Shown here: in pieces, positions 11,538 to 42,561 of the stretch
Position numbering within the stretch: position 1 is the first letter of the stretch
Layout of the letters: every line of letters starts with the position of its first letter
Assembly: GCA_034401795.1 (NCBI GenBank)
Contig: CM067374.1
Location: 98,552,860 to 98,616,859 of the forward strand
Direction: 5' to 3'
Length of the DNA stretch: 64,000 nt
From: Chaetoderma sp. LZ-2023a
Taxonomy: Eukaryota; Mollusca; Caudofoveata; Chaetodermatida; Chaetodermatidae
Made by a program: the position numbers and the translations under genes
The notes under the pieces: model-generated
Databases searched by the model: none
Seen by the model: the letters and a program-made list of their open reading frames with translations, nothing else
What the model was told of the DNA's origin: nothing

Positions 11538-12244
11538 AAACCGATTTGGATGATTCAGAGAATTCCACATCAAGAGAATTACAGCATGGCCAGTTGCAGA
11601 TGGCTCTTGTGAGAGCAACTGCCTCAGATTATCGAAATTCTGCAGGAGAAGATTCTGAAAAGCAGATCATTGAACATGGGATTAATTCTTCACGAAGAGA
11701 AACATCCGGTGTTCCAAACATTCACGAGCTACTTGCATCAACAATACGAGGACGAAATCTGAATAGATTAGGAATGTCACAAAGTGAACAGTTTGGTGGC
11801 TTGTCCAGTGCTTCAGACTCTAACATTCTTATTGATCATGATGCTACAGATATGTCTGTTGTGCAAGCTCGTTCACCACTGTTATCATCCCTGGAATCAA
11901 CTTCTGCTGATAGTCCGGCGGTACCTCTAGTCAATCTTGGTGAATACCATGGGTATCTTCCCGATTCCAACTGTGTCATTCGATGTATGTATTGTAAAAA
12001 AGATTTCCAGGATTATACATTGTGCCGGAAACATCTGGAAGATGTTCATATTGAGCGGGGGGCAGAAAGTTACCGGTGCTTGGTATGTAGTTCAACTATT
12101 CAGCGACGAGCAGATTTCGTGCGACACTGCACCAGCCATGGTCTGCGTATTATTTGTCCAATCTGTGGTACTGGATTTTCTAGGAGGGATAATTACAGAA
12201 ACCATTTATCGAAGAAGTGCTTAAGAAGAGTACAACCGTATTAA
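11538..12244 (+). CDS. Zinc-finger terminal exon A (three fingers, long N-terminal extension)
   Basis: Terminal coding exon of a C2H2 zinc-finger protein, probably a nuclear DNA-binding factor. It follows AG at 11536-11537, begins with two bases completing a split codon (phase 1), and encodes about 235 residues to TAA at 12242-12244. The first ~145 residues are Ser/Asp/Glu-rich with no domain I recognise. Then come finger 1 (C-X2-C-X12-H-X4-H, first Cys codon at 11984), a 9-residue linker, finger 2 (C-X2-C-X12-H-X3-H, ending RHCTSH) and finger 3 (C-X2-C-X12-H-X4-C, a C2HC type). Spacing and the FVRHC signature match exons B and C, so they are one family. An ATG at 11498 lies before the acceptor and is probably intronic. 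An intronless short gene starting there is the alternative. Confidence 0.8.
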
Positions 12245-12629
12245 GACAGTAGAGTAGTACTAGCATGTTTCATTGCGACTCGCAACTAACAGAATTCAGT
12301 TGATAAGTCTGTCGCTCTGTTTTTCAAAATATTTACATTTCTGACAAAACTGCCTATGTCGCAACTGTAGCACGTTTCTGTGTATGAAAGCGTTGAGCAT
12401 TACCATGTCTGTTAATACATACATGCATCCTGCCATTTACAATTAGCATGCACTCATGTATTTGGAAATGTATTGGCCACATGAGTCAGGGAATGGGAAA
12501 AAGCGGTTACAATGCACCTATCAATCCCTCACCCTGCTGCTGACTCTGTGGTCCAAATGGGTCCGTGTCAATACACAGGCATGCACTACAAATCATACGA
12601 TTTTTAGTTTGAAATTTTATTAGTCTTAA
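12245..12629 (+). other. Downstream of exon A: 3' UTR or intron, with dispersed repeat 4
   Basis: Contains GCGACTCGCAACTAACAGAA ... TGCCTATGTCGCAACTGTAG (about 12273-12372), a dispersed repeat seen again at 12870-12960 and 16955-17170. No canonical AATAAA found in the first 500 bases after the stop, so the poly(A) site is unassigned. Confidence 0.45.
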
Positions 12630-12828
12630 CCATTACCGCTCTGATGTCAATATTCAATCTTTTAATGTGGCAATAGCAAGGAAACTGGTGTACTTTTTTC
12701 AACAATTTTGGTGGGAGATGTTTCTGTCTACGACAGCAACATCTTCCATCAAATTTCTTGAAAAATGAACCCGTTCATATATTTCATTTATATTTAAAAT
12801 TTTGATATCAGAGTGGTAATGATTAATA
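12630..12828. mobile_element. Palindromic MITE family 3, best copy
   Basis: Ends are TTAACCATTACCGCTCTGAT and ATCAGAGTGGTAATGATTAA, inverted to each other. The centre has GGTGGGAGATGTTTCTGTC / GACAGCAACATCTTCCATC. Non-coding. Confidence 0.7.
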
Positions 12829-12832
12829 CAAA

Positions 12833-13074
12833 CTAATGTGTACTTTTAATGTGAATATGTCAACTTTTAGTTTCAACTCACAACTTGCTAGATATGTCTA
12901 TCTGTCTGTCTCCCAAATTTTTCAGAAAGCTGCCTTAGTCGCAACTATAGGGCATCTCACTTGTTCCCATTTACATTAATAGTATGGTATACTGAAGCAT
13001 GTATACTCAAGAAGTTAAATGTTTTCCACTGATTATCAAGACCCCTGAGCCACTTGTTAACACTTAACGGTCAA
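12833..13074. repeat. Dispersed repeat 4, second copy
   Basis: Around 12870-12960: AACTCACAACTTGCTAGATA, TCTGTCTGTC, CAGAAAGCTGCCTTAGTCGC, as in the copies near 12273 and 16955. Function unknown. Confidence 0.45.
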
Positions 13075-13256
13075 GCCTGTTAAAACATGAACAATAATAT
13101 TGGAAATGCAGACAAAGAGAAAAAATTCTTTGATCATTTACCAATGGGATGACTTGCTCAAATAATCTAGCTACTCATTGCAGTGGTCATTTTTTTAAAT
13201 AGTCTGCTCATCTATAAATGAAGATTTTCTTCACCAAATCTGACCATTAAAGGGTT
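13075..13256. mobile_element. Palindromic MITE family 2, worn copy
   Basis: TCATTTACCAATGGGATGAC and its worn partner, with CACTTAACGGTC on the left and TGACCATTAAAGGGTTAA on the right. Confidence 0.5.
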
Positions 13257-13599
13257 AAAGAGTCTTGAATGATATTGATAAATCCATTCATGTCATAGTT
13301 TGCTATACATCTGTGAAATGATACTTATAGCTGGCTAAAATTATTGGCATTAGTGATGTGTACTAGGTAGGCGAGATTCCTTATTAACTCTCTAGTGAGA
13401 ACACAGCAAGACCACCCAGTTTCTAAGGTCACTTATGCTATTGGACGCTATAGTATAATATTTAGCAAACACATTTTGTCATATACCAAAATATAGATTT
13501 CGATGATGACAGAGGATTGCATTCATACATTGGCTCTCCCTCATAATATAAAGTACATAAATGTCTCATTATATTTGGAGAAAAGCTAAATTTCCCCAC

Positions 13600-13755
13600 T
13601 CAGCTGAATATCTATAGATTGGACCAGCCGACTAAAAATTTACCACGGGAATAACAGAGCCAGTCATTTCAGTGGTGAGTTTTCAAAAATGGTTTTCTCT
13701 TGGTCTGCAAATGGACATTTCTCAAGACCACTGAGCTGATATGAGTATTAAAGAT
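13600..13755. mobile_element. Palindromic MITE family 2, partial
   Basis: AATTTACCACGGGAATAACA ... TTCTCTTGGTCTGCAAATGG and GATATGAGTATTAAAG at the right end; left arm mostly lost. Confidence 0.5.
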
Positions 13756-14415
13756 TTATCTTTGAGCATGAGTGACGCTACTCATATAAACACTTGGTCA
13801 ATATGCGACCTTGTTTCTGGAAAAATGCATCAAAGCTAAGACATATATCCATTGATACTGATAGTAAAATACTCAACCATCAATATGTTTCATATGTAAA
13901 GAGTTTGTGCTTAGAATTTTTACTTGTGGACTGTTAACATATGGCATGGTCTGTATAACAGCTAGGTGAGCCTCACTACCTGGTATCTGACTAATAGAGG
14001 TCAAAGCGGGTTTTATCATTGGCATATATAATCATATATATTACTTCTAGCATCAGTAATTTGACTATTGCTTATTCTGTGAAGTTCATTGTGATTTAGT
14101 TAATTGTGATTATAACATGTGTATTAAAAGGCCATTGTTGAGTCATTAAAAATTTATTGATTGACACTGAACTAATTTTAAACTGTTGTTATAAGCACAT
14201 AATATCAGCGCCATGTGAATGACATTGTCAAAATCACCTGGAATAATTAGTCAGCCACACATTGCATAGTGACAATCACTGTTGCTTACTTTCCTAACAC
14301 TCATCGCAGTCATCCTAATTTCTTCCTGGGTTAAATGAGAGAATCTCAGACGCCTGAGCGTATTATTCTTTTGTATCTGCTGCAGCTGCGTCTTGATCAG
14401 AGAACTACTGGAGGA
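13756..14415. other. Intergenic stretch, nothing recognised
   Basis: A minus-strand frame at 14251-14442 has no domain. No fold or repeat recognised. Confidence 0.45.
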
Positions 14416-14940
14416 ATCCAGTTTTAGCCATGCCCCACCCATCTCTAGCTAAGCTCCACCCATGCATTGCCTGTGTTGGAATTGATCGATCCACGTAGGC
14501 TCGCGCGATTGTGTGATTAAATCGAAAATCATGATTATTTTTTATATCGTGAATTTATATGATTAAAAATTAAATAATCGAATAATCGTGAATAATTCTA
14601 TCGCAGAAAATATCTCAAAACCTACCTTTTAATTACTCTTTAATGCGATCGGTCATGGAAATTTACATTTTGCTCAGCGAATGCATGTCCATTTGCAGGC
14701 CAAGAGAAGACTATTTTTGAAAATGTATCACTGGAATGACTAGCTCGAGAATCGAGCTAGGCATAGGCAGCAACAGCACCCAGTCAAATTAGTTTCAAAA
14801 TATTCAACAGCTTATCTGTATAGTTTTCTGGAAATTGATAGTCTGGGAGTTCAGAGATCAATCGATCCCAACACGATCGAGTTGTGGACGAAGCTTAGCT
14901 AGAGATGGGCGTGGCATAGCTAAAAATGGAAAGGCCCATT
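14416..14940. mobile_element. Composite of MITE fragments
   Basis: 14416-14490 matches the left part of MITE family 1 (GCCCCACCCATCTCTAGCTA). 14497-14610 is an AT-rich block with GCGCGATTGTGTGATTAAAT and repeated AATCG words, similar to 63430-63560. 14640-14758 is half of MITE family 2. 14759-14940 is the right half of MITE family 1 in minus orientation, ending AATGGAAAGGCCCA. The order suggests nested insertion followed by loss. Confidence 0.5.
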
Positions 14941-15690
14941 CCGTGAAACTTAGGTTGATTGATCTTATGGTGATAGTTTTCAACACTTCTAACAGGAATA
15001 TTGAGTGGTCACTTTTATCGGTGGTAATCTTGGATTATCAGAACATTTTGGGGAAATATTTTAACCCTATCTCTTAATCCGCTTGGCACATTTTAATCAA
15101 ATTTGTCTGGAAGAATCCTTCAAAATTAACATTCTGAATTTTGATTTGTTAATCCTTTAGTGGACATCTTAGATTTTTTTTTAAATTTTTCCGAAAACCC
15201 TTCTTATGCAATTCTGTCTCCTTTAATCAATGGCCCAATTTCCTCGAAACTTGTGTGAAATTATCCAACTGGGGTAGGCTTCAACAGTTCTAATGAGAAT
15301 TTTCATTGCTTTTTTTTTTCAGTGCCCATCTTTTATTTTCTGAAAATTTTCCCAAAATCATTAAAAATATATCCTCCTAAACTGCTTGGTGGATTGTAAC
15401 AAAATTCAGCAGGAAGAATTGTATGTTAGGCTCCATACTGTAGCGTCCATTCAGAATTCTTATTTGTTTAATTGTTTCTGCAGCCATCTTTGATTTTCTG
15501 AAAATCTTCCGCAAATCCTTTAAAGCACTCCTTAGCCAGTGGCCCAATGTCAGCAAACCTTTGGTGGAATGATCCTATGATGATTGGCTTCACCACTTTG
15601 ATCGGACAATTTTTTCAGCATCCATCTGATTTTCTGAAAATTTGCCGGAAATCCATTTCTTCAGCATTTCAACGATTGTGTCAATCAATG
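14941..15690 (+). mobile_element. Helentron-like 195-bp monomers, no clear ends
   Basis: Three to four units with AATTTTGATTTGTTAATCCT, ATCTTAGATTTTTT and AATTTCCTCGAAACTTG variants. Both terminal hairpins are missing. Confidence 0.45.
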
Positions 15691-15965
15691 TTTCCTGCAG
15701 CTGCCATAAAATTGGCTGTTCTGTACAGGTCTTTCAGCATTCCCCATGGTGTTTTGTCCATAGGTCCTCTGCATAAGGCTCTGTCTGGTGTCGCAGTTGA
15801 CTGAAGAAAGGCCATGTCTGCAGTACATGGCTCTGATGTCTTGTCCAGCTAATGCCACAGTCACGGTTGGGTGACATAACTATACCCTATATGAAGATGG
15901 AAAATGGCTGTCTGTTCCGCTGGGCCAAGGCGATGCAGATCATCAATCTTTGGCTTGTAGTGGTT
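15690..15965 (-). pseudogene. LINE C-terminal fragment (5'-truncated, broken)
   Basis: On the minus strand the frame reads LHRLGPAEQTAIFHLHIGYS, then, after stops, a region ending TPWGMLKDLYRTANFM. This matches the layout of the LINE tail at 28181-28702 (EQVTIFRLRTGH ... LYGPVEELQKTTDFIL). The cysteine knuckle expected between them is disrupted. A dead remnant of a non-LTR retrotransposon with an RNase H-type tail. Confidence 0.5.
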
Positions 15966-15967
15966 TT

Positions 15968-16680
15968 TAGCTGACCTGTGAGCTTATGCCATGGCAACTG
16001 TCCGTCGTATTTCAATCCATCGTCCGTCAACTTTTCCTTTAAACGAATTCTCAAGAACTACTAAGCCGATTTCAATTATATTTGGCAGGAAGCATCCTTG
16101 TTGTTCAAATGAAGCCGAAACCACCTGGGGTATCGATGCAAACCTGAAATATGATCTAGAGCAAGAGCTGAGCCAAATTTTTTCAAGGGAACTTGATTGG
16201 CCATATGGTTTGGCAGCCATCTTGGATAACCTAATTTTTAGCGAAAACGACTTCTCCAGACCCTCTGAATGGATCTGGCCAAAATTTGGCAGATATGATT
16301 AGGAACTAAGAGCCATTAAAATTTCAATGGAAGTTGATACGTAAAAAAACCCATGGCCTCCATGGATCAATCAAAATGTAGTGTGTTTGGCGGCCATATT
16401 GGATATTGTTGTTTGATGGATTTTGAATCCTGAAATTGGTTTATAGGTTTTTGGGTATTCTGATGTCAAATTTGCCATTATCGAAACTGACTGATGAACA
16501 GTTTGGTGGCCATCTTTTATCTTTTTCCACCAAAAACTCCCATCCTAAAGCAATGAGAAATTTAAAATGTCTTCTCGAGAACCACTGGGCCAATTTCACG
16601 TATATTTGACATGAAGCATCCTTAGGGCATAGGGATCCACGTTTGTTTCCCCCCTTGCCTTTAAGGGTCATAATTTGGTA
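15968..16680 (+). mobile_element. Helentron-like element, 615-bp monomer type, 3' end lost
   Basis: Starts TAGCTGACCTGTGAGCTTAT, then CCGTC repeats and the 615-bp unit with ATTTCAATTATATTTGGCAG, GGCAGCCATCTTGGATAACC and CATGGCCTCCATGG. No 3' hairpin. The plus frame 15991-16302 (103 codons) is a chance frame across the monomer. Confidence 0.5.
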
Positions 16681-16954
16681 GTTCTTTAAGAATGGTCACA
16701 AAACCACCAATCTTAAGCAGCCACCATCATGTGGCCTCCCAATACCCATTTCATATGAAAACATATCTATGTTAAGAAACCATCTGTTTCTTTGACAGAT
16801 TTTAAATGATCCATAAAGTGCTCGTTATAGACGAATTTGACTGTATTTTATTGATTGGTTTGATACCACGCCAGCGAAGAGGCGATGACGGTCATTCGCT
16901 CACTTGTTTACTATTGCTATACTAACCTACTGACATAAGTTCCTTTCAAATATT
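16681..16954. other. Intergenic stretch, nothing recognised
   Basis: No frame, fold or repeat that I can support. Confidence 0.4.
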
Positions 16955-17175
16955 TAGTTGCGACTCATAAGCAACATCTGTCAGTCAGTTTGTCTGTCGG
17001 TATGTCAAATTTTTGACATTTCTTATAAAGCTGCCTAAGTCGCAACTGTGGGGCATCACACTTCGACTTGCTTAGTTGGAAGTCTCGACCAATATAACAA
17101 GGTCTGTCTATCAAAGGTTTGAGGTTTTTGACAATGCCATCTATGTCGCAACTATGCCATATTGCACTTGTTTTT
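16955..17175. repeat. Dispersed repeat 4, longest copy
   Basis: GTTGCGACTCATAAGCAACA ... AAAGCTGCCTAAGTCGCAAC ... CATCTATGTCGCAACTATG: three related stretches, so the unit is itself internally repeated. Nature unknown. Confidence 0.5.
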
Positions 17176-17203
17176 AAGATATTTAACATCTTTGCTGGGG
17201 TTT

Positions 17204-18130
17204 TAGCTCACCTAGGTGAGCTTATACAATCACGATTTGCCTGTCTGTCATCTGTCAACAATTCTGGCACATTTTGCCATTTGTTGATGGATTAAAAGCA
17301 AATTTGAAACCTATTCTCCTTTTTGCAATATCTATTTGGACTGTGAAAATGAAGTGGCCACGCCCACAAATAGTGGAGTTATGTCCCTTGCTATATTTTC
17401 AAGGTATTGAAGCCTATGGTGAAAATATGTTTGTTGCACGTTTCGTCATTTATGGATGGATTACAACTAAATGTAGTAGATATGTTCCTTTAGGCAACAT
17501 CTATTGGAGCTATGAATATGAAGTGATCACGTCCTTAAACAAGGGCCATAACTCGGGTTCATTGAGGTGTTTGTAAGTATTAAGCCAGTATGGTGAAAAA
17601 ACATGTTTTCACCAATTGTTGATAGATTGAAGTCAAATTTAGTAGATATGTTCCTTCAGTCAAATATCTATTTGAACTATGGATATAAAGAGTATGCATA
17701 TTTAAACAAGGGTCATAACTCTGGTTCATTAAGTCTTAGACTATTGAACCTATGGTGAAAATCCATTTGTTTCGTCAATTGTTGACGGATTAAAATCAAA
17801 TTTAACAGATATGTTTATTCAGTCAAATAGCTATTTGGACTATGAATATAAAGAGACAGCACCTTTAAATAAGGACCATAACACTGGTTCATTAAGACTT
17901 GAAAATATCGAACCCTTTGGTTAAAATACATTAGTTTTGTCAATTGTTGATGGATTAAAAACAAATTTAGCAGATATGTTCCTTCAGGCAATATCCATTC
18001 GCCCTATGAATATGAAGTAGCCACGACTTGAAATAAGGGGCAGAACTCTGGCTCATTAAAGCATTTTACGTATTGAACCCTATGGGGAAATTAATCTGTG
18101 TCACGTTTCGTAAACTGGTAATGGACTAAA
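17204..18130 (+). mobile_element. Helentron-like element with ~177-bp monomers
   Basis: Starts TAGCTCACCTAGGTGAGCTT (a short perfect hairpin form of the 5' end). From about 17265 there are five units of ~177 bp: TTGTTGATGGATTAAAATCA, AGATATGTTCCTTCAGTCAA, GACTATGAATATAAAGAG, CATAACTCTGGTTCATTAAG, AACCCTATGGTGAAAATA. No 3' hairpin recognised. The 100-codon frame at 17274-17576 spans units and is not a gene. Confidence 0.55.
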
Positions 18131-18626
18131 ACAAGATTTGTCAGAAAAGTTCCTTTAGTACACTTCAATCAAATGGCAATAGTGTCAGAGATGGCTGGCC
18201 CCATTGATTAATGGTACTCCTCCTGTTTGTCAATCAAGCCAATATTATTGCATTTCCCCATCCAAATTTGTTACTGTGACCTCACCTTTACCCCTTTTGG
18301 TAAATGTCAGTGTTGTGACAATTGAACTATTGATCAATGGTGTCTGTGATGGCTGCCCCATTAATCAATTGTACTTTTCCTGTTGGTAAATACTGAGATA
18401 TACTAAGATATCAGGGATAGAATAGTCTGGATAGGCGATAAGGATATGTTATGTGATTGTGGTGACCACCTTATATGGAGCAAGATAGCGGGTCACTAAA
18501 GCTAGATGGTTACATACATGTACTGGAACTCAGTTGTTCTTATATGAAATTTCTAATCAAATTTACAAGTTAGTGGTACTTTAACGCGGGTAGTATTTTT
18601 ACAAGCAACACATGAATGACTAGATT
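18131..18626. repeat. Short local duplication in otherwise blank DNA
   Basis: GGCTGGCCCCATTGATTAAT near 18195 and GGCTGCCCCATTAATCAATT near 18349 head ~155-bp related stretches. Nothing else recognised. Confidence 0.4.
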
Positions 18627-18780
18627 TTAACCCTTTCAGGACGAAACCGCCCAAGACCAGCCTCTGCAGGGGCCTTGAGAAATGTCCATTTGCAGGCCAA
18701 GAGAAGACTATTTTTGACATTTTTTTCAAAAATAGTCTTCTCATAGCCTGCAAATGGACATTCAATAAGTAAATATTTTA
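18627..18780. mobile_element. Palindromic MITE family 2
   Basis: TTAACCCTTTCAGGACGAAA at left; CAAGAGAAGACTATTTTTGA and its inverted arm meet around 18718-18722, with the centre of the palindrome shortened. Confidence 0.6.
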
Positions 18781-18926
18781 ATTTTTTGAACAAATTTAGT
18801 CGTTAATATTAATGATCACCTTATATTGCTCTGTATTCTGTCTGTCAAAATAAAAGAACATTGAACATTTCAGCAGCATGTTATGTTTTTTTAGCTTACT
18901 AAATCCAAATTAATGTTTCTTTACAG

Positions 18927-19267
18927 AAAGCGATAAAGCTTCTGGATGGCCTCACCAGTCGACATCTCTTAGTACCAAAAGGGCAGCTATTGCAGACACA
19001 GAAGCGTTTTGGTGTGTGTATTGTAATTCCAGTTTCCGTGAACTCGGCCCCTTCAGAAGACATTTACGCCAACATTTAGACAAGGACGCTGAATTCTACC
19101 AGTGCATATTGTGTGGGTCAATCATTAAAAACATGGTGTCTTTTGTTCGCCATTGCGTCGGCCATTGTCAGAGATCGCGTGTGTGTTTTAGATGTGATGC
19201 ATGTAGGAAGGACTTTACACGGGATGATAAGTATCGCGCACACATCAAGGCATATCATAGTATATGA
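18927..19267 (+). CDS. Zinc-finger terminal exon B (three C2H2 fingers)
   Basis: Second terminal exon of the family. It follows tttctttacag (AG at 18925-18926), enters in phase 1 and encodes about 113 residues to TGA at 19265-19267. Residues 20-30 read ADTEAFW, shared with exon C. Finger 1 is C-X2-C-X12-H-X3-H (signature FRELGPF, then HLRQH), linker 9, finger 2 C-X2-C-X12-H-X3-H (RHCVGH), then finger 3 C-X2-C-X12-H-X4-H (DDKYRAHI). All twelve zinc ligands are present. Over the 85-residue finger module it is about two thirds identical to exon C by eye, and keeps the spacing of exon A. Probably a nuclear DNA-binding end, spliced to constant exons lying outside the window. Confidence 0.85.
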
Positions 19268-19404
19268 TCAGTTGCTGCGCATTGATTATTTTCATTGTAA
19301 ATTTGCCTGTTGCTGTAACAACAACTAGTCAAAATCAAAAAAGATATTCACAAGTTTATGTCCTTTAGTGTCACTCAGTTCTGCTTTCTGAGATTTCAGG
19401 ATCA

Positions 19405-19801
19405 ATGGACCTTACCATTTTTAGCTATGCCCCACCCATCTCTAGCTAAGCTCCACCCACACCTCGATCGTGTTCGGATCGATCGATCTCTGAACTCCCG
19501 GACTATCAATTTCCAGAAAACTATATAGGTAAGCTATTGAATATTTTGGAACTAATTTGACTGGGCGCTGTTGCTGCCTATGGCAACAAATAGGCAACAA
19601 CAGCGTCCAGTCAAATTAGTTTCTAAATATTTGACAGCATGTTTATTAAATAGTAGAGACATACAATTTGTACGTGTTGGAATATTAAGAGTTAAAGACG
19701 GGCCAAATAGAATCATTTATGAAGTAATAATTATGACATCATCCTAGATGCTGCTTGGCTGATTATGACATCAGATGATAGATGGATACTCTGGAAAGGT
19801 G
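19405..19801 (+). mobile_element. Hairpin MITE family 1
   Basis: TGGACCTTACCATTTTTAGC to ACTCTGGAAAGGT. The central hairpin (about 19531-19641) has extra bases (ATGGCAACAAATAGGCAACA) at the loop. It begins 138 bp after the stop of exon B, so it may lie in that transcript's 3' UTR. Confidence 0.7.
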
Positions 19802-19914
19802 AATTGGAATACTCATCTAATCGTATAATACAGTACAGTTCAGAAATAACTAAATGTTTCCAAGACAAAAACATGTTAGTTAGTACAGTCTTGAAGACGA
19901 TGTAAGAAATGTTC

Positions 19915-19983
19915 TATTGAATATTTTGAACATAATTGAATGGGAAGACATTGCTACATTAGGCAGCAATGTCTTCCAATACA
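19915..19983. repeat. Short hairpin, MITE family 1 relative
   Basis: GAAGACATTGCTACATTAGGCAGCAATGTCTTC forms a stem of about 12 bp with worn flanks TGAATATTTTGAACATAATT. Confidence 0.5.
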
Positions 19984-20381
19984 ATGGACCTTTCCATTTT
20001 TAGCTATGTCCCGCCCATCACTAGCTAAGCTCCACCCACACCTCGCCGTGTTGGGATTGATCGATCCCCAAAAGCCCTAGCTATCAATTTCCTGAAAACT
20101 ATACAAGGAAGCTGTTGAATATTTTGTAACTAATTTGACTGGGTGCTGTTGCTGCCATAGGGAGCAACAGCACCCAGTCAAATTAGTTGCAAAATATTCA
20201 GCAGAATATTTATTAAATAGTAAAAGCAAACAATTTGTACAACAATGCATAGACCGTCTTCAAATATGCGTTCAGTGACGTACTTATCGACGTCATTCAT
20301 GATGTCATTCAATATGATGTCATTGTACACATCACGCAGTTCATTATGACGTCATATGATGGGTGGGTACTCTGGAAAGGT
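19984..20381 (+). mobile_element. Hairpin MITE family 1 with CRE palindrome
   Basis: TGGACCTTTCCATTTTTAGC to ACTCTGGAAAGG. Hairpin around 20112-20200; TGACGTCA at 20347-20354 and several half sites before it. A second copy within 600 bp of the previous one. Confidence 0.75.
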
Positions 20382-20569
20382 GAATTATGTTCAAAATATT
20401 CAACAATATATTTTATGTTTTATTTCTGAGCTGTACAGTATGCCATACTTAAAGTACGCATCATTTCTGTCATGCTATCAAAGAAAGATATTAATTTTTT
20501 ACCCCTTAACCCTTTAATGGTGAAATTTGTTCAAGAAAATCAAGATATTTGCCCAATGAATGTTCATTT

Positions 20570-21030
20570 GCAGGCCAGAAGGTCCAAGTGAACTTATGCG
20601 ATGGCGGTCGTCCATCCGTCAAATCACATCTCATTTATGCTTTGACCGATTTCAATCAAATTTGGCTGGAAGGATTCTATAGTGCTAGGCGGCGGAAGGT
20701 TTATAAAGAATTTTGATTGGTCAATTTTTCTGGTGGCCATCTTGTATTTTTAAAAAGATTTCTGGAAATCATTTAAAAGACTACTCCTCCAATATAAATG
20801 GCCTGACTTCAATGAAACTTGGGTGGACTAATTCTATCCTGGTAGGCTTCAACATTTCTAATGAGAATTTTGATTGGTCAATATTTCCAGTGGCTATCTT
20901 AGATTTTCAGAACATTTCTGGAAATTATTTAAAAGCCTGCTTCTCATTAACCGCTTGGCCGATTTCAAGCAAACTCGGTTTGGAAGGACCATAGCGTAGT
21001 GTGCTTAGGGACCTTTGATTGACCAATTTT
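20570..21030 (+). mobile_element. Helentron-like element, 195-bp type, left part of an interrupted copy
   Basis: Starts AGGTCCAAGTGAACTTATGC with the usual CCGTC segment. Units with CTAATGAGAATTTTGATTGG run to GATTGACCAATTTT at 21030. The element resumes at 25287. Confidence 0.6.
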
Positions 21031-26545: not shown

Positions 26546-26599
26546 CTTTTTGGAAATGTGTAAAGTTATTTCTGAGACCTCTACACTGTATCTATTGTA

Positions 26600-29410: not shown

Positions 29411-29579
29411 GCCTGCATGATTAACCTAAGATTGCGATACATGTAGCGATGTTGGTGAAGCAATAATCTACTCCAGTCCGGGCCAAGATGGGCCTCTGAA
29501 GTGGCCCATAGGAATAGATTACCTGGGTTGAAAATTAGGTAACCTATGTTTTAGGCTACCCAAATTTGTCTAATTTTAG

Positions 29580-29815: not shown

Positions 29816-29969
29816 CAAGTATATGGTGTCATAATCAATTACATCAGACATCACATGTAGGTTGATGTCACATCCATAATTGAGAGAAATTCTCCGCCAT
29901 TAAGCTGGAATAGTCTGTCAAGTGTACAAATTGTATCTTTGATGGATGTACTACTCAATAATCACTGAC

Positions 29970-30120
29970 GATTCGATTGAAAATTTTGAAACTAATTTGA
30001 CTATGGCAGCAACAGCACTGTCAAATTAGTTTCTAAATATTCAACAGGTTACCTTGATAATGGTATTCTGGGAATTCAGGGTTCGATCGATTGCAACACG
30101 AGCTAAAAATGGACAGGTCA
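29970..30120 (-). mobile_element. MITE family 1 fragment
   Basis: Arms TGAAACTAATTTGACT / TCAAATTAGTTTCTAAAT with a shortened loop, then GATCGATTGCAACACGAGC and CTAAAAATGGACAGG. Confidence 0.55.
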
Positions 30121-30129
30121 TAGCTAGAA

Positions 30130-30422
30130 ATGTATCCCTCTATTATTGGTACTCCCACCATTATCTCCATCAGAATTCTTACTGCCATCATTTTTACTGT
30201 CATCATTATCAGTCACAATCAACATTGTAAGCGCCATAATTGTTACTCTCATCATGTCACTGTTGTCATTGGTACTGTCATCACCATCATTGTCAGTCAT
30301 CATCCTAGTAAAATATGGTCATCACAATCATTGTCACTGCCATTGTTCTTATCATCATCATTGCCACCCACTTGACAGAACTTTACTCTCATCTTCTTCA
30401 CCTTCGTTGTCACCATCATTAT
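30130..30422. repeat. Degenerate ATC-type repeat, second block
   Basis: CATCATTTTTACTGTCATCA and similar. Frames across it (SLSPSLL, HHPS) are low-complexity artefacts. Confidence 0.7.
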
Positions 30423-32608: not shown

Positions 32609-35600
32609 TAGCTCACCTGGCCTGAAAGGCCAAGTGAGCTTATGTTGTGGTGACCGTCCGTCCGTCAACTTATCCTTTAAACGACTTCTCAAGAACCGCT
32701 GGGCCAATTTCAATTATATTTGGCAGGATGCATCCTTAGGGCATAGGGATCCAAGTTTGTTCAAATGAACCCAATTAGGCCGGTAGCCATCTTGGATTTT
32801 GGCCGATTTTTAGAAACGTCTTTAAAAATCTCCGAAACCGCTTAAGGGATTGAAGGAAACCTGATGAAATATGACCTAGGGCAAGAGCTCAACCAATTTG
32901 TTCAAGGGAACTTAATTGGTCAAATAATTTGGCGGCCATCTCAGTTGACCTAGTTTTAGCGAAAATAACTTCTCCAGAACCGCTGAAGGGATCAGGCCGA
33001 AATTTGGAGGATATGATTAGGGACTAAGGGCCAGTAAAGTTTGTTCAAGAGAAATTGATCTGTCAAAAAACATGGCCGCCGTGGGCCAATCAACATATAG
33101 CATGTTTGGTGGCCATATTGGATTTTTTTATTTGATGAATTCTGAAGCCGAAATTGGGTTTATATAGGTTTTTGGGTATTCTGATCTCAAATTTGCAATT
33201 TTCGAAACTGTCGGATAAACGGTTTGGTGGCCATCTTGGATCATTTTCCCGCCAAAAGCTCCCATACTAAAGCAATAGGAAATTAAAAATATCTTCTCGA
33301 GAACTGCTGGGCCGATTTCAATTATATTTGGCATGAAGCATCCTTAAGGCATAGTGATTCAAGTTTGTTCAAACGAACCCGATCAGCCAATTTGTCCGAC
33401 GACCATCTTGGATTTTGGGCGATTTTTAGAAATGTCTAAAACTCTTCTTCTCCCAAACCATTTGAGGGATCGATTCAAAACTCACGAAATATGATCTAGG
33501 GTAAGCGCTGAATCAAATTTGTTCAAGGGAACTTGATTGACGAAATGGTTCAGCGGCCATATTGGATGACCTAATTTTCACAAAAACGACTTCTCCAGAA
33601 CCGCTGAAGCAATCAGGCCGAACTTTGTGATATATAATTAGCAATTAAGATTTAGATTTATTCAAGAGAAGTTGATTCGTCAAAAAACATGGCCACGGTG
33701 GACCAATCAAAATATAGTGTGTTTGACAGCCATATTGGATTTTTTTTGATGGATTTTGAGGCCGAAATTTGTTTTCTATAGTTTTTTGGGTATTCTGATC
33801 TCAAATTTGCAATTTTCGAAACTGTCGGATAAACGGTTTGGCAACCATCTTGGCTCATTTTCCCGTCAAAAGCTCCAATACTAAAGCAATGGGAAATTTA
33901 AAATGTCTTCTCGAGAACCACTGGGCCGATTTGAATTATATTTGGCAGGAAGCATCCTTATGGCATAGAGATTTCATTTTGATCAAACGAAGCCGATCGG
34001 CCATTTTGGCCGGTGACCATCTTTGATTTCGGCAGATTTTTAGAAATGGCTTGAAAAATCTCGTTCTCCGAAACGGCTTGGGGAATCGATTCAAAACTTA
34101 TGAAACCTTATCTAGGCAAAGAGGTCAGCCAAGCTTGTTCAAGACAACTTGATTGACCGAATGGTTTGGCAGCCATCTTGAATGACCTAGTTTTCCCGAA
34201 AACAACTTCTCCAGAACCGCTGAATGGATCTGGCCAAAATTTGGGAGATATGATTAGGAACTAAGGGCTATTAAAGTTTGTTCAAGGGATGTTGCTCCGT
34301 CAAAAAACATGGCCGCCATGGGCCAATTAAAATATAGCATGTTTGGCGGCCATATTGGTTTTTTTTATTTGATGAATTTTGAGGCCGAAATTGGTTTTAT
34401 ACAGGTTTTTGGGTATTCTGAGCTCAAATTTGCAATTTTCGAAACTGTCGGATAAATGGTTTGGTGGCCATCTTGGATCATTTTCCCGCCAAAAGCTCCC
34501 ATACTAAAGCAATGGGAAATTTAAAATATCTTCTCAAGAACTACTGGGCCGATTTAAATTATATTTGGCATGAACCATCCTTAAGCTATAGATATTCAAG
34601 CTTGCTCAAATGAACCCGATCGGCCGACGACCATCTTGGATTTCGGCCGATTTTTTTAAATGTCTAAAAATCTTCTCCTCCCAAACAATTTGAGGGATCG
34701 ATTCAAAACTCACGAAATATGATCTAGGGTAAGCGCTGAATCAAGTTTGTTAAAGGGAACTTGATTGACCAAATGGTTCAGTGGCCATCTTGGATAACCT
34801 AGTTTTCATAAAAACGACTTCTTCCCAAGAACGGCTGAAGCGATCAGGCCAAAATTTGTGATATATAATTAGAAACTAAGGCCGATTAATGTGTGTTCAA
34901 GAGAAGTTGATTCATTGAAAAACATGGCCGCGGTGGACCAATCAAAATATAGTGTGTTTGGCAGCCATTTTGGATTTTTTTTATTTGATGGATTTTGAGG
35001 CCGAAATGCGTTTTATATAGGTTTCTGGGTATTCTGATCTCAAATTTGCAATTTTCGAAACTGTCGGATAAACGGTTTGGCAGCCATCTTGGATCATTTT
35101 CCCGCCAAAAGCTCACATACTAAAACAATGGAAAATTTTTAATGTCTTCTTCTCGAGAACTACTTGGCCGATTTGAATTATATTTGGCAGGAAGCATCCT
35201 TATGGCATAGAAATTTCATTTTGTTCAAACGAAGCCGATCGGCCAGTTTGGCCGGTGGCCATCTTTGATTTTGGCAGATCTTTAGAAATGTCTAAAAATC
35301 GTGATCTCCGAAACAGCTTGGGGAATCGATTAAAAACTTATGAAACCTCATCTAGGCAAAGAGGTACGCCAAGTTTGTTCAAGACAACTTGATTGACCGA
35401 ATGGTTCAGCAGCCATCTTGGATGACCTAGTTTTCCCGAAAACGACTTCTCCAGAACCACTGAATGGATCAGGACAAAATTTGGGCGATATGATTAGGGA
35501 CTAAGGGCCATTAAAGTTTGTTCAAAGGAAGTTGCTCCATCAAAAAAAATGTCCGCCGTGGGCCAATCAAAATGTAGCGTGTTTGGCGGACATATTGGAT

Positions 35601-36272
35601 TTTTTTATTTGATGGATTTTTAGGCCAAAATTGGTTCTATATATGTTTTTGGGTATTCTGAGCTCAAATTTGCAATTTTTGAAACTGTCGGATAAACGGT
35701 TTGGTGGCCATCTAGCTCCCAAGCTAAAGCAATGGGAAATTAAAAATATCTTCATGAGAACTGCCAGGCCGATTTCAATTATATTTGGCAGGAAGCATCC
35801 TTAGGGCATAAGGATGCAAGTTTGTTCAAATGAACCCGATCAGCCAATTTGCCCAGCAGCCAATTTGGATTTCGGCCAATTTCAGGAAATGTCGTTATAA
35901 ATCTTCTCCGAAACCACTTGCAGAATCTTCATCTAGGCCATGAGGTAAGCCAAGTTTGTTCAAGAGGACTTGAATTACCAAATGGTTCGACGACCATCTT
36001 GGATGACCTGGTTTTCACGAAAATGACTCCTTCAGAACCGCTGAAGGGATCACGCCAAAATTTGGGCTATTAAAATTTGTGCAAGGGAAGTTGATCCATC
36101 AAAAAAACATGGGCGCCGTGGGCCAATCAAAATGTAGTCTGTTTGGCGGGCATATTTCACTTGCAAAAATGTCCACCAACTCATTTAAAAGACTGCTAAA
36201 CCACCCACCAACAATTTTGACAAAAATTGATGGTGCTCCAGGTGAGCGACGCAGGCCCCTTGGGCCTCTTGT
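32609..36272 (+). mobile_element. Helentron-like element, complete, six 615-bp monomers
   Basis: Best bounded long copy, 3,664 bp. 5' end TAGCTCACCTGGCCTGAAAG, hairpin partner GGCCAAGTGAGCT; 3' end CCAGGTGAGCGACGCAGGCC then CCTTGGGCCTCTTGT. Monomer landmark ATTTGGCA recurs near 32718, 33325, 33943, 34563, 35178 and 35783 (period about 605-620). Each monomer carries CGGCGGCCATCTTGGATGAC and CATGGCCGC...GTGGGCCAATCAA. No open frame above 81 codons, so it must be mobilised in trans if at all. Confidence 0.65.
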
Positions 36273-37189
36273 TATTGTTATTGTCAATACTAACACACAT
36301 CGTGATTGAGCTCATAAAATGGCGAAATATTTATTACAACATTAGGTGGCGCTTTGGACTTCGGGGCATTACAAAAGAAGCTCGGATTGGCTGCTCATAA
36401 ACCAGTCTGTCATTCATTCTGTCTACTTTCACATGGGTTCGTTCACCTTTTGCAGAGACCACCGCGTATCAGAAATGAGGTCAATGCCAATGAGTGGTGT
36501 GCGTGCGCCGTCAAGAAGTTTTATCCTATTATGAAGAATCATTGATTTAAACAAAATGGATTCATTGTACCTTCTCAAATATTGAGCCCAATGCGGAGAT
36601 ATTACTGTTGTGGCACGTTTTGTTTTGTCATACTTAGAGCTATTGACGTCATGCTTGGTGAGTGAGTACCTCTGGGCAAAAGCTACCATCCATATAATTA
36701 CTAGGTCAGTCTGATCTACTTTTTGGATAATATAGGTGGCTAAGAAAAGTTGATGTGGTATATTTCAATGACTTCATCACAAATTGACATTATAAATCCA
36801 GAGTGATGTGAAATAATGATGTCGGAAACATGATGAATCAAGAAACAATGTAACAATGACGTCGAATATACACATAGAACGCAGTTCCTACTTTCTATAT
36901 CCTGGGTTATAATCAGTTTCAAATTGAAAGGAATTAAGGCACAGGAAGCTTATATCAAGGAAATATGCAGCATCTATTTATGTAATTATTTGTCATATGG
37001 TTATTCATTTCATATGTTACTTCATATTTTAGAGTGATAAATTGTACAAGTTATGGATAATGACAAGATGCAATGTATAATCAAAGATGAAATATAAGCC
37101 CATGACATTAGGCCTATAATAAAGTAAAGCTGGACTAGATAGCATGCATTAGCAGATCTGACAATGTTTAACACACCATGAAATATTTA
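36273..37189. other. Non-repetitive stretch between repeats
   Basis: No family repeat recognised. A minus frame at 36429-36689 (86 codons) has ordinary composition but no domain I know; a GT at CAAAAGGTGAAC could be a donor. A CRE palindrome TGACGTCA is at 36644-36651. I do not call a gene. Confidence 0.4.
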
Positions 37190-38400
37190 ATATGTATATT
37201 TGCAAACCAATAAGACTATTTTTGAAAATTTATCAATGAAATGACTGGTTCGGTAGTCTAACCAGTTATTTCAGTGATAAATTTTCAGAAATAGTCTTCT
37301 TGGTTTGCAAATGGACATTTATCAAGAGGACTACAGAAACACTAATGGAAATATTGCAACATCGTTTAGTATATTTATTCACGCTATTGAGAGCACTGCA
37401 TATTGTGGTGTCGGAGCAAACTGAGTTATACAGTGTACATTGCTGACCAAGATTATTAATTTTTGAAAATGTACCACTGGAATGACTGGTTTGGTAATAT
37501 CACCAGTCATTCTATTGATAAATTTTCAAAAATAGTCTTTAGTTGGTCTGTAAATGGACATTATAAAGACAACTACAGGCATGACAGATGTCCTAATGAT
37601 GGAACGGTAACATCTTTTTATACAATTTATTCACACCATTGAGAACAATTTATATTGGGGTGAGCGAACTGAGCTTTAAACAGTGTATCGGTATGTCCAT
37701 TTGCTGACAAAGACTCCAAAAGATTATTTTTAGAAAATTTACCACTGGAACGACTAGTTTGGTAATCTAACCTGTCATTCCAGTGGTAGATTTTCAAAAA
37801 TAGTCTTTAGTTGGTCTGCAAATGGACGTTATAAAGACAACAACAGACATGATAGAAGGCCTAATATATATATATATATATTAGGGTGAGCAAACTGAAC
37901 TTTAAACAGTGTACCGGTTCATTCATTTGCTGACCAAGACTTCAAGAGATTTTATTTAATTTACCACTGGAGTGACTGGTTTTGTAACCCAACCAGTCAT
38001 TCCAGTGGGAATTTTTTTTAATTAGTCTTCTGTTGATTTGTAAATGGACATTTATCAGGACCACTGCAGAAGTGGTAATGATGGAAAGGTTGGTTGACCA
38101 GCATCTTGTATATTTATTCATCATGAGGCAATGAGCACAACACACTAATTAATACATATATTGGGATGCGTAAAATGAGTTAGATTTATTAAAAAATTTC
38201 ATAATACATTGTTTGTCAATTTAGGGCCCAGATTCAGACGACCATTTTTGAAAATTTATCACTAATGATTGGTTCGGTAATCTAGCCAGTCATTTCAGTT
38301 GTATATTTTCAAAAATAATCTGGTCTGCACAAAGACATTGCTCAAGATCACTGCAGCTGACGTCGTTGACTGCATTAACCACTAAAGGGTGGTAACAGGC
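37190..38400. mobile_element. Run of five MITE family 2 palindromes in tandem
   Basis: Palindromes at about 37190-37325, 37438-37565, 37688-37840, 37920-38065 and 38215-38345. Each has GACTATTTTTGAAAATTTA-type arms around GACTGGTTYGGTAATCTAAC. Spacers share the phrase (A)CACT/GAGCAAACTGA and TTTATTCA. The ~240-bp period suggests tandem duplication of MITE plus flank, not independent insertions. A (TA)7 sits at 37867-37881. Confidence 0.65.
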
Positions 38401-38594
38401 TAGTGTTAAATTAATTTCTGTGCATGGCACATGCAGGTAAAACTTTTCTCACTTTGTGACAAAGTATGCGCCATGTAGGCAATGTACTGTCCCTGTAGGT
38501 ACTGAAAAATAAAACATCTAATGTAGTCTTCTACTTGGAAATAGGTTCTCAGTTTCTGAGACTTAGTCGTTTAAAAACTGATGGCCATTAACAT

Positions 38595-38826
38595 TTTAAC
38601 ACTCATATCAGCCAAAAGCGGCTTCAGCAGTGGTCTTGAGAAATGTCGATTTGCAGACTAAGAGAAGACTATTTTTGAAAATTTACCACTGGAATGACTG
38701 GGTCGATAACCAAGCCAGTTATTCCAGTCGTAAATATTCAAAAATAGTCTTCTCTTGGTATGAAAATCAACATTTCTAATGCGAAAATTGAAAATTTCTT
38801 GAACAAATTGGAGGGTTAAAGGGTTA
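38595..38826. mobile_element. Palindromic MITE family 2, complete
   Basis: TTTTAACACTCATATCAGCC to AGGGTTAAAGGGTTAA. Strong pairing around GGTCGATAACCAAGCC. Confidence 0.7.
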
Positions 38827-38894
38827 ATAAGTATGAAAATGTATGTAAGTAGAGTGTGCAGTTTAACAACTTCCAATCAACTCATATTGCCAAA

Positions 38895-39215
38895 AAATAG
38901 ACCAATGATAATCAAGATTCTCGTTTGATATGTTGAAGCCTCATAGGATCACTCTACCCAAGTTTTGTTGCAAGAAGGCCATTGATTAACTTAAGAAGTA
39001 CCGTTTTAAATGGTTCTGGAAGGTTTTCAGAAATTCCTAGAGATAGCTGTCAAAATATTGACCTAACAAAATTCTGGAAAGATTTTCGCCGCAGCATTTA
39101 AAGAGGAGTAGCATTTTAAACGAATTCACATTTTTCATAAAAATCCCAGATGGGCACCCAAAAAATTCAAGCAATCAAAATCTTTTATACAAGTTCTGAA
39201 GTGTTGAAGACTTAA
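38895..39215 (-). mobile_element. Helentron-like 195-bp units, minus, no ends
   Basis: TTGAAGCCTCATAGGATCAC, CCCAGATGGGCACCC, AATCAAAATC read on the minus strand as two units. Confidence 0.45.
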
Positions 39216-39352
39216 TATTGACAATAATTGATGACTGACTAACCCTGTCATGCAAGACTGGGTCATAGGAGGACCATGCAATCATCTGACTTAACACCAT
39301 ATGGCCCACACATGTATTGACAATAGCAAATGCAATGCATTGACCCTTTAAC

Positions 39353-39545
39353 CCTTACCACTCTGTCGAAACTTTAAATTTTAAAATTAAATTAAATGAT
39401 GAACTGGTGTTTATTTTTCAACAAATTCCTTTGAAGATGTTGCTGGCTTAAACGTCATCCATCAAATTTGTTGAACAAGGTACATCAGTTTCTTTGCTAT
39501 TGACACAGTAAAATGTAGAACATTGACATCAGAGTAAGGGTTAAT
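39353..39545. mobile_element. Palindromic MITE family 3
   Basis: AACCCTTACCACTCTGTCGA to GACATCAGAGTAAGGGTTAA, ends inverted. Centre GAAGATGTTGCTGG / GTCATCCATCAAATTTGTTG is worn. Confidence 0.65.
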
Positions 39546-39775
39546 GGTCAGATTTGGTAAAGAAAATTTCTATTTCTTCATAGAAATGTCCATTTTCAGG
39601 CCAAGGGACTATTTTAAAAACTTTACCACTGAAATGACAGGCTCGGTGCTAAACAATAATTGACAAAATGTTTCTCTAAGCATGCAAATGGATATTTACA
39701 ATCAATGCAGATGGTATATCAGGAAGATCAATGCATAGGATAGGATGTTTCTGGCAAGCTTGCCCATTAAAAAGT
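39546..39775. mobile_element. Palindromic MITE family 2, worn
   Basis: TGGTCAGATTTGGTAAAGAA to GCCCATTAAAAAGTTA; right arm partly lost. Confidence 0.5.
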
Positions 39776-40077
39776 TACCCCACTCCACCTGCGTTTAGTG
39801 ATCCTTTTTGATTAATCGATGGCTTATATAGTACGTTTAAAAAAACCCAGGTCAAATGTGCATAGGTCATGTCTTCTTGTGTGAATCAACCCTCAACAGA
39901 TAATCATAATATATAAATAAGGCTACATTTGGTAGATATACATCTGCGACACATATCAGATTAATGGGCTTCTATTGCAGGCGGCATTTTGCATCTTCTG
40001 AGAATCGAAATAAATTATTACTGTCAAAGCATGACAGGTGTCAGGGTGTTATCTATACGTTTCAGAAATATACATAC

Positions 40078-40299
40078 TTATGTGGTGGTTCATTGTCATC
40101 CAGTGGCCCTTCATCGTAGACAAATTCAAATAGGGAGACCTCTAGGAGATGACGGTTTAGACAGTTGCCTATAAATTCCTCATGCCGTGTGATGCACTGA
40201 TGCCCATCTTCTAAAGTCTTCTCTCGCACCAAGCTTATCTCCTGACAGCACACAGACCCATGTCCTGTAGTCATTGTCCGACAGTTTCCACATGAACAC
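40078..40299 (-). CDS. Single exon encoding a P2X7-type C-terminal cysteine domain
   Basis: On the minus strand the acceptor ttatttttag precedes 40299 and the donor AA/GTATGT follows 40078. The exon is 222 bp and enters and leaves in phase 2. Motifs in order: C-S-C-G-N-C-R-x-M, C-C-Q-E-I, C-I-T-R-H-x-x-F and C-L-N-x-x-L-L-E. That order is the zinc-binding ballast fold of the P2X7 receptor cytoplasmic tail, a domain also found without a channel in many invertebrate proteins (established knowledge). No ion-channel segment is near. It lies antisense between zinc-finger exons B and C, either a nested gene or an exon remnant. Neighbouring exons were not found. No stop or frameshift within it. Confidence 0.7.
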
Positions 40300-40384
40300 C
40301 TAAAAATAAGTTGCAGATGATAATTAAATACAGCCATTAATATTGCAGGCTTTCAGACATATAAAAAATTATTTCCCCATTTGT

Positions 40385-40640
40385 AGTTTAAATTGCAAAT
40401 GTACATTGATGTGAACGGCTAGCCGCTTAATGAATGTCTATTTTCAGGTTAAGAGAAGACTTTGAAAATTTACCACTGGAATGGCTGGCGCTGTTACAGA
40501 TCCAGTCATTCCAGTGCTAAGTTCTCAAAGATAGTCGTCTATTGGCCTCCAAATGGACATTCATCAAGATCATTCCAGAGGCTGGTTTTGGCCCTAAAGG
40601 GTTAACAATTAACCCTTTCACTCATATCAGCCAAAAATGG
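40385..40640. mobile_element. Palindromic MITE family 2
   Basis: GTTAAGAGAAGACTTTGAAA and GTTCTCAAAGATAGTCGTCT arms around GGCGCTGTTACAGATCC; right border GGCCCTAAAGGGTTAAC, followed by a second border fragment AACCCTTTCACTCATATCAG. Confidence 0.6.
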
Positions 40641-41632
40641 CCTCTGCAGTGAAAACGACTTCTCCCGAACCGCTGAAGGGATAGAGCTGAAATTTTGTAA
40701 ATATGCTTAGGGACCAAGCGCCTTTCAAGTTTGTTCGTTAAAAATATGGCCGCCATCAACCAATCAAAATTCAGCGTTTCTAGGTCATATTGGCTTTTTT
40801 GTATTTGATGTATTTTGATGGCGAAAATTGCTTTATATATGCTTATCAGTGTGGCGAGTTCAAATATGCCACTTTCGAGACTGTCGGATAAACGCTTTGG
40901 CTGCCATCTTGGTTTGTTTTCCCGCCAAAGGCTCCCATGGTAAAGCAATGGGCCAATAGTAAAGCAATGGGGGAATCCTTTAATGACTTCTTCTCAAGAA
41001 CCACTGGGCCGATTTCAATTATATTTGGGAGGAAGCATTCATAGGGCATAGAGATATAAATTTGTTCAAATGAACCCGATCGGCTAATTTGTCCGGCGGC
41101 CATCTTGGATTTAGGGCGATTTTTATTTTTGATCTGCTCAATGGTTTTCGAGCTACCCACCTTTTCGTGGGCAAAGAATTCACATAGAGAATGTATAGGA
41201 AATTTCAGGATGGATTTTTGAACTGCGACTACGCCTACAGTTTTTAGCCCACCTGGCCTGAAAGGGAATAAGGATCCAAGTTTGTTCAAATGAACCCGAT
41301 CGGCCAATTTGCCCAGCGGCCATTTTGGATTTCGGCCGATTTCAGGAAATGTCTTCAAAAATCTCCGAAACCACTTGTCTAATCTTCATCTAGGCCAAGA
41401 CGTAAGCCAAGTTTGTTTAAGAGGACTTGATTGACCAAATGGTCCGCGACCATCTTGGATGACCTGGTTTTCACGAAAATGACTCCTCCAGAACCGCTGA
41501 AGGGTTCGGGCCGAAATTTGGGCCATTAAAATTTGTTCAAAGGAAGTTGATCCATCAAAAAAAACATGGGCGCCGTGGGGCAAACAAAATGTATTGTGTT
41601 TGGCGGCCATATTGCACTTGCAAAAGTTCTGG
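40641..41632 (+). mobile_element. Helentron-like 615-bp monomers with one internal 5' end
   Basis: Enters mid-monomer (GAAAACGACTTCTCCCGAAC). A foreign insert (41120-41240, TGATCTGCTCAATGGTTTTC) interrupts it. A fresh 5' end TAGCCCACCTGGCCTGAAAG starts near 41245, followed by a deleted junction to the next monomer. Ends without a 3' hairpin in CACTTGCAAAAG. The 170-codon and 108-codon minus frames here are monomer shadows. Confidence 0.55.
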
Positions 41633-42202
41633 ACCAAGTGTAAACTAGTTTCACTCTGTATAACATGCCTCAAAATAAAACACACACGCACGCACGCACG
41701 CACACAATCAAACAAGGGAATAAAGGAGACAATAATTTCTGCAAAGAATGTAAAACTTAAATTGGTGCACATTTGGCAAGTGTGTAAAGAAAATGTCCAG
41801 ATATATTTGAATTTCCACCTGACCAACATATACAGCCATAATCTGATTGATCAGTTCAAACTTGTAGAGAGAATAACATATGCTGCTCAATGACACATAG
41901 AATTATGCCAGATTTCATGATACCCCAGGAAATCTATTCTACCTGACCCTGTTAATATACTAGTATACACATTCTGGCCATATTAACAATCAGTTTAATA
42001 GGGGTGTGGCAATGGTGAAGTAAACAATAGATGAGTTTTGTGCCATTATCATGGTTATTTTAATTAGTGTAAATGATGTTAGAGGGGGGTCACAATTGTG
42101 GATAAATGTAATACGTATTCATTACGAGATAGATAACCCTACTCTATAACACGTAGTGTGAGATTACTTTGTCAGTAAATCAGATTTCATGTTTCATTTC
42201 AG
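41633..42202 (+). other. Presumed intron upstream of exon C
   Basis: A short ACGC repeat (41684-41704). No gene. Ends in catgtttcatttcag, a good acceptor. Confidence 0.45.
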
Positions 42203-42561
42203 ACGGTGGTGGAACTTCTGGAATGTGTCCCTCTTACCAGGCAACATCTCTTAGTAACAGAGCGTCAGCTCTTGCAGACACTGAAGCCTTTTGGCGCATG
42301 TATTGTGATTTCACTTTCCGTGAACTTGGTCCATTCAGAAAACATTTACGCCAGCATTTAGACAAAGTTGCAGAGGTCTACACGTGTGTGCTTTGTGGAT
42401 CAGTTGTGAAAGACAGAGAATCTTTTATTCGTCACTGTATTGGTCATTGTAAGAGATCACGTGCCTGCTTCAGATGTAGTACATGTAACAAAAACTTTCC
42501 GCTAGATGACAATTACCGAGCTCATATAAGGACACATTTTATTGCATCATGGAATGCTTAG
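42203..42561 (+). CDS. Zinc-finger terminal exon C (finger 1 has lost a cysteine)
   Basis: Third terminal exon, paralogue of exon B. AG at 42201-42202, phase 1 entry, about 119 residues, stop TAG at 42559-42561. It shares with exon B the stretches TSLS, ADTEAFW, FRELGPF, HLRQHLDK and YRAHI. Fingers 2 (C-X2-C-X12-H-X3-H, RHCIGH) and 3 (C-X2-C-X12-H-X3-H) keep all ligands. In finger 1 the first cysteine is arginine (codon CGC at 42295-42297), so this finger should not bind zinc normally; the second Cys and both His remain. No frameshift or stop, so the exon looks maintained. Role inferred: alternative DNA-binding end of the same protein as exons A and B. Confidence 0.85.

Follow-up and report, generated by a model that had tools for sequence, protein, structure and literature searches.

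Introduction

Can a mollusc gene carry one common front part and a choice of zinc-finger ends, in the manner of the insect genes lola and mod(mdg4)? The question is raised by a 64,000-nucleotide stretch of the genome of Chaetoderma sp. LZ-2023a (contig CM067374.1, here C16; C16:98552860-98616859), which we call the window. It holds three zinc-finger exons on one strand, cassettes A, B and C, which a first-pass annotation had taken for alternative ends of a gene with constant exons elsewhere. Following them through the whole genome (2.44 Gb searched), we find that A, B and C are very probably alternative 3'-terminal exons of one plus-strand gene, used by the mechanism described below; the best reading of the sequence is a lola-like set of alternative ends placed on a different shared domain.

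Small N-terminal domains encoded in an exon of their own ahead of zinc-finger exons are familiar from the KRAB, SCAN and ZAD families, which have many paralogues and usually a single zinc-finger exon per gene. Tandem clusters of zinc-finger genes are likewise common. For the one-front, many-ends design, the parts of the literature available to us describe lola as a gene whose common N-terminal exons, with a BTB front, are spliced in cis and in trans to about 20 unique 3' ends, one at a time and mostly with zinc fingers (PMC1947980; PMC11426971). The accessible text on mod(mdg4) gives shared 5' exons and at least 31 isoforms in D. melanogaster; the ends lie on a single strand in Anopheles gambiae and on both in some other insects (PMC4667647). 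A survey of animal zinc-finger genes reports large numbers in molluscs and, in the text examined, no such arrays (PMC10547256). Among titles and abstract openings, most subscription papers being out of reach, we found no such array outside insects, and the four exon peptides that we searched for occurred in no paper covered.

Results and Discussion

The three cassettes and their acceptors lie in the window as follows:

11516..11537, + strand: acceptor of A (ctaaacattatatatctttcag)
11538..12244 (C16:98564397-98565103), + strand: cassette A, candidate 3'-terminal coding exon; phase-1 entry, three fingers (finger 3 C2HC), own stop
18905..18926, + strand: acceptor of B (ccaaattaatgtttctttacag)
18927..19267, + strand: cassette B, candidate 3'-terminal coding exon; phase-1 entry, three C2H2 fingers, own stop
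42181..42202, + strand: acceptor of C (cagatttcatgtttcatttcag)
42203..42561, + strand: cassette C, candidate 3'-terminal coding exon; phase-1 entry, three fingers, own stop

Positions, acceptors, phase-1 entry and separate stops are all as the first-pass annotation had them when read from the sequence. The acceptors are pyrimidine-rich (ctttcag/AA in A, tttacag/AA in B, atttcag/AC in C), and two bases stand ahead of the first complete codon in each exon, which makes the entry phase 1. The nine-residue linker noted earlier between fingers 1 and 2 is present in all three (IERGAESYR in A, LDKDAEFYQ in B, LDKVAEVYT in C). The common three-finger layout also holds, with two departures: finger 1 of C reads R-x-x-C and not C-x-x-C, Arg replacing the first zinc ligand, and A has a C2HC finger 3, its last ligand being Cys. 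Ahead of finger 1 stand 148 residues in A, 28 in B and 30 in C; B has no in-frame Met there. C2H2 families were matched by all three exons in Pfam, and FLYWCH was not among the matches listed for them at E<=1. B and C share 63% identity across 86 aligned residues, with a ratio of nonsynonymous to synonymous substitution rates (dN/dS) of 0.12; by sequence and tree (support 100/99), C is a tandem relative of B, the two forming a local tandem pair.

Where, then, is the common front? The 30 kb lying 5' of a dense cassette cluster on C9 contain two exons, each with a phase-1 donor: the first encodes 46 residues beginning at an ATG, and the second opens with the motif APRWIRDYSMS and continues into a long linker of low complexity. 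A search with exon 1 of this cluster gave a copy on the plus strand 69 kb ahead of the window, and exon 2 of the window's gene was found between its exon 1 and C16:98525706:

C16:98484051-98484189 (L061:1507-1645), + strand: exon 1, putative constant coding exon; 46 residues from a conserved ATG, phase-1 donor G/gtacgg
C16:98498494-98499444 (L065:2788-3738), + strand: exon 2, putative constant coding exon; 316 residues, acceptor ctctcag/AT, phase-1 donor GAA G/gtaagt

The constant exons expected outside the window are thus accounted for by two coding exons with phase-1 donors, upstream and on the same strand. An acceptor-like site 36 bases 5' of the exon-1 ATG suggests a further, untranslated 5' exon. 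Exon 2 consists of the conserved motif AP[RK]WI[RK]DYSMS followed by a low-complexity linker of about 300 residues, which is probably disordered.

Three more cassettes lie between exon 2 and the window, giving the order 98523.7k, 98539.9k, 98552.2k (all on C16), A, B, C; the first was read base by base, and C16:98539.9k and 98552.2k are known by protein match only. Downstream, the next gene's exon 1 stands at C16:98634953. Up to that point no cassette 3' of C was among the matches listed in searches with the fingers of A and of B, and the 18 kb from the window's end to that exon are known from these matches only. The idea that cassettes continue beyond either edge is borne out upstream, and downstream nothing was listed before the next exon 1. 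The intron that separates exon 2 from the first cassette holds long open frames (L066, about C16:98506.8k-98511.9k) whose translations resemble reverse transcriptase and recombinase; they may belong to a DIRS-like element.

According to the proposed mechanism, exon 1 with its 46 residues and exon 2 would form the common front of every transcript, and the phase-1 donor of exon 2 would be joined in each transcript to one cassette, namely A, B, C or one of the three upstream of the window. The products of A, B and C would span about 476-598 residues (predicted A 598, B 476, C 482), sharing the same N-terminus and differing in their three-finger DNA reader. We infer that transcripts join the exons in this way and that the choice is made by alternative splicing together with a choice of poly(A) site.

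Is this arrangement peculiar to the window? With the fingers of A as query, and again with those of B, clusters of such exons appeared on C16, C9, C11 and C6. Exon 1, searched alone because a query extended past residue 58 or so runs into an intron repeat with many scattered matches, gave 37 matches genome-wide at E<=10, all below 0.001 except those on C13 (0.02) and C14 (0.41). A GT giving a phase-1 donor is present in 37 of 37: a script placed it at the same column in 30, and by eye it lies one or two codons later in the remaining seven (L074, L080, L085, L087, L088, L090, L091). Exon 2, with its first 29 residues as query, gave 19 matches at E<=10, each 1-22 kb downstream of an exon 1 on the same strand and with no match elsewhere listed (positions compared by hand; 6 of the 19 also in a separate comparison). 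In total, the clustered matches of the A and B finger searches amount to at least 88 cassettes at 11 loci (29, 13, 10, 8, 7, 6, 5, 4, 4, 1 and 1). For every one of these 88 assigned cassettes the nearest exon 1 is on the cassette's own strand, with the cassette downstream. Judged by sequence, about ten more genes of this genome look to be built like that of the window.

Not counted among the 88 are two weak matches, C9:20910477 (minus) and C6:80912824 (plus), each sharing its strand with an exon 1 in range, and two exons of quite different finger type in the minus-strand locus of C16 (L050:9248-9679 and L051:9258-9662, both minus), which have phase-1 acceptors and their own stops. Because of this last pair the figure of 88 is probably an undercount, and the arrays seem to mix finger types.

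For closer tests we read 32 cassettes base by base with their flanks, namely A, B and C together with the 29 best remaining loci of the A-finger search. A profile built from these 32 found only A, B and C at E<=1 among the frames of the window. Within the open stretch that precedes finger 1 we took the acceptor with the highest score, blind to frame. It fell in phase 1 in 32 of 32 cassettes, compared with 762 of 1941 open stretches drawn at random from the window (39%; p 5e-16 against one third, about 1e-13 against 39%). No in-frame Met precedes finger 1 in 12 of the 32, or in 11 when a more upstream acceptor is taken, so that 11-12 cassettes could not encode three fingers alone from an ATG. 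The proportion of nonsynonymous differences was below that of synonymous ones (pN<pS) in all 496 cassette pairs, and among the 16 closest pairs dN/dS was 0.09-0.31 in 12, with dS saturated in 4. On this sequence comparison the cassettes are under purifying selection.

A tree of the 32 cassettes is moderately supported, 5 of its 29 inner branches passing the program's mark. A falls together with cassettes from three further loci (89/91, flagged for long branches), and L035 and L044 form a local pair (100/99) as B and C do. Taken together, these groupings suggest that whole genes were duplicated with their cassettes and that cassettes were additionally duplicated in place. Among the helix positions that usually contact DNA, in the numbering that we assume for these fingers, several vary strongly, with column entropies of 2.7-3.5 bits; examples are 2 and 3 in finger 1, -1 and 2 in finger 2, and 3 and 6 in finger 3. 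Others are nearly fixed, such as -1 in finger 3 at 0.4 bits, and some positions outside this set are as variable, so that we claim no enrichment of variability at the contact positions. The isoforms would be expected to differ in the DNA sites that they bind.

What does the common front encode? The first-pass annotation had expected a BTB-containing 5' part, and this expectation failed. Searching the genome for PF00651 gave 111 matches at E<=1, none near the cassette clusters, and BTB was thereby ruled out as the shared part near these loci. On C16 there is no such match between 71.85 and 100.83 Mb, the nearest being 1.6 Mb past the last cassette and 2.2 Mb past the window; elsewhere the nearest matches are at least 6 Mb from the C9 clusters, 50 Mb from C11 and at least 4 Mb from the exon-1 loci of C6. 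What the upstream sequence does supply, next to the phase-1 donors, is the exon-1 domain. Eight residues are invariant across its 37 copies (F12, F27, W30, L31, D32, E37, K39, G42), and exon 1 is predicted to be a helical hairpin of 46 residues, the AlphaFold model consisting of two helices (2-17, 21-41; mean predicted local distance difference test score 84.8, predicted template-modelling score 0.53).

Database searches gave nothing significant for this domain. All 37 copies together matched eight Pfam families at E<=1, each by one copy and with a best E of 0.041, HMMER's filters dropping most matches above about 0.1; KRAB (PF01352) is not among the eight. The joined exons reached 0.14 at best in Pfam, and PDB sequence searches 0.6 and 0.51, the latter for 12 residues of exon 1. 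Foldseek of the model against PDB had a best E of 7.3 and none at E<=0.001, which is weak evidence given the short model. A Pfam match to TPPII_GBD was rejected: its E of 0.086 does not reach the cut-off, and it starts among the last residues of the exon, at position 48 of 86, covering mostly intron-derived residues. By analogy with BTB in lola, the exon-1 domain may mediate self-association or contact with a cofactor. It looks like a wider zinc-finger-associated domain whose genes do not all have arrays, since exon 1 also stands ahead of ordinary many-finger exons on the same strand, 11 kb upstream of one with phase-1 entry on C14 (L092-L093, C14:8479k-8492.6k) and 26 kb upstream of one with phase-0 entry on C7 (L075/L094, C7:23493.6k-23521.5k).

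Several results weigh against alternative ends of one gene. Phase 1 is the commonest outcome in random open stretches as well; the scripted acceptor is, by eye, probably not the true one in L025, L035 and L042, and when the most upstream acceptor of similar score is taken instead, phase 1 is obtained in 30 of 32 and two cassettes depart from it. Only three of the 19 exon-2 matches have E <0.01, the others resting on position; some of the 88 cassettes have E-values up to about 0.01, and the count does not include scattered zinc-finger matches outside the clusters. No cassette of the A/B/C type is assigned to 26 of the 37 exon-1 matches. Some cassettes are degenerate, among them C, the sole case of zinc-ligand loss in the 32 (11 of 12 ligand columns checked), and C16:98523.7k, with a finger 3 lacking its His and a doubtful acceptor. 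Poly(A) signals within 500 bases of the stop occur in 17 of 32 cassettes compared with 21 of 32 antisense controls, and for this lack of enrichment we dropped them as a marker of terminal exons. Finally, a locus extends over 10-252 kb from exon 1 to its last cassette, which is long for simple cis splicing.

That distance would suit trans splicing, in which cassettes transcribed from their own promoters are joined to an exon 2 carried on another precursor, the mode used by mod(mdg4) and, in part, by lola. The two best documented insect genes of this layout are trans-spliced according to the sections available to us (PMC4667647, PMC1947980), and same-strand cassettes are compatible with it, mod(mdg4) of Anopheles gambiae being thought to be trans-spliced in the accessible text (PMC4667647). 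In D. melanogaster and D. plexippus, according to the same source as far as available, mod(mdg4) draws its cassettes from both strands (PMC4667647), whereas all 88 assigned cassettes here follow their exon 1 on its strand. We infer that cis splicing is more likely, and consider trans splicing unlikely. The damage in C and C16:98523.7k, the poly(A) result and the frequency of tandem zinc-finger clusters could also be taken to mean that A, B and C are what is left of individual zinc-finger genes, either a tandem cluster of ordinary genes or decaying copies, and are not spliced to a common front. Such remains would hardly be expected to carry phase-1 acceptors in 32 of 32 cases (30 by the other choice), to lack a usable Met in 11-12, to be under purifying selection, and to recur in the same arrangement behind exon 1 at 11 loci, with exon-2 matches at 19 exon-1 loci; we regard this explanation as very improbable. 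Just as improbable is genuine kinship with lola or mod(mdg4), the BTB exon having diverged or being located elsewhere. The overall layout and the many zinc-finger cassettes are alike, but none of the 111 PF00651 matches is near a cluster, and exon 1 opens with its own conserved ATG, has no significant sequence match in Pfam or PDB and is modelled as a two-helix hairpin of only 46 residues.

Alternative 3'-terminal exons of one gene consequently remain our preferred explanation. Exons, splice signals, matching phase, a shared strand, the repetition at 11 loci and purifying selection can each be read from the genome, and the earlier comparison with the exon cassettes of lola and mod(mdg4) is supported by the upstream phase-1 donors and the further cassettes.

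How close is the likeness? With lola the locus shares a common front and alternative ends, mostly zinc-finger ones in lola and here predicted from the genome sequence, and several 3' exons with their own stops are phase-compatible with one upstream donor. The fronts differ: BTB in lola, here a predicted hairpin without significant Pfam or PDB match, plus a linker. Lola is moreover a single locus, in contrast to at least 11 paralogous loci with cassettes here. For want of a BTB domain the locus cannot be filed as a lola member; on genomic evidence it is lola-like in its working. Shared 5' exons and alternative ends, predicted here, are also common ground with mod(mdg4), which differs in its N-terminal BTB, its mostly FLYWCH ends and their presence on both strands in some insects; the ends here are C2H2, the assigned cassettes keep to one strand per locus, and neither FLYWCH, among the matches listed for A, B and C at E<=1, nor a nearby BTB was found. 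The KRAB, SCAN and ZAD families resemble it in having a small N-terminal domain in its own exon and many paralogues, yet none of the 37 exon-1 domains matches them in Pfam at E<=1.

If transcripts confirm the model, a design best known from insects, with one front and many zinc-finger ends, would stand here on a different front domain and be multiplied across several chromosomes. One may further speculate, quite tentatively, that this is a second, independent invention of the lola principle in a non-insect animal, with at least 11 duplicated loci, at least 88 cassettes and a new N-terminal interaction domain, and that isoforms of different loci pair through this domain into combinatorial transcription factors, which might for instance specify neuron or cell identity. 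Confirmation of the model by transcripts would also provide an independent case for asking why the one-front, many-ends design evolves. It would further offer a zinc-finger-associated domain for characterisation and, at up to 29 per locus, cassette sets in the range of the about 20 ends of lola and the 31 isoforms of mod(mdg4).

Downstream of C the window also contains mobile elements:

45957-46985, - strand: Tc1/Tc3-type transposase frame, 343 residues, uninterrupted (PF01498, PF13358)
52328-53356, + strand: Tc1/Tc3-type transposase frame, 343 residues, uninterrupted (PF01498, PF13358)

The two frames, in opposite orientation, are 98% identical (335/343), and the copies are probably recent insertions. 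Long TA-type simple repeats, appearing as YIYIYI frames, lie beside them (45411-45692, 47201-47565, 51043-51751). Retroelement pieces occupy window positions 54000-60400, with a reverse transcriptase (PF00078) at 57220-58407 and neighbouring open frames.

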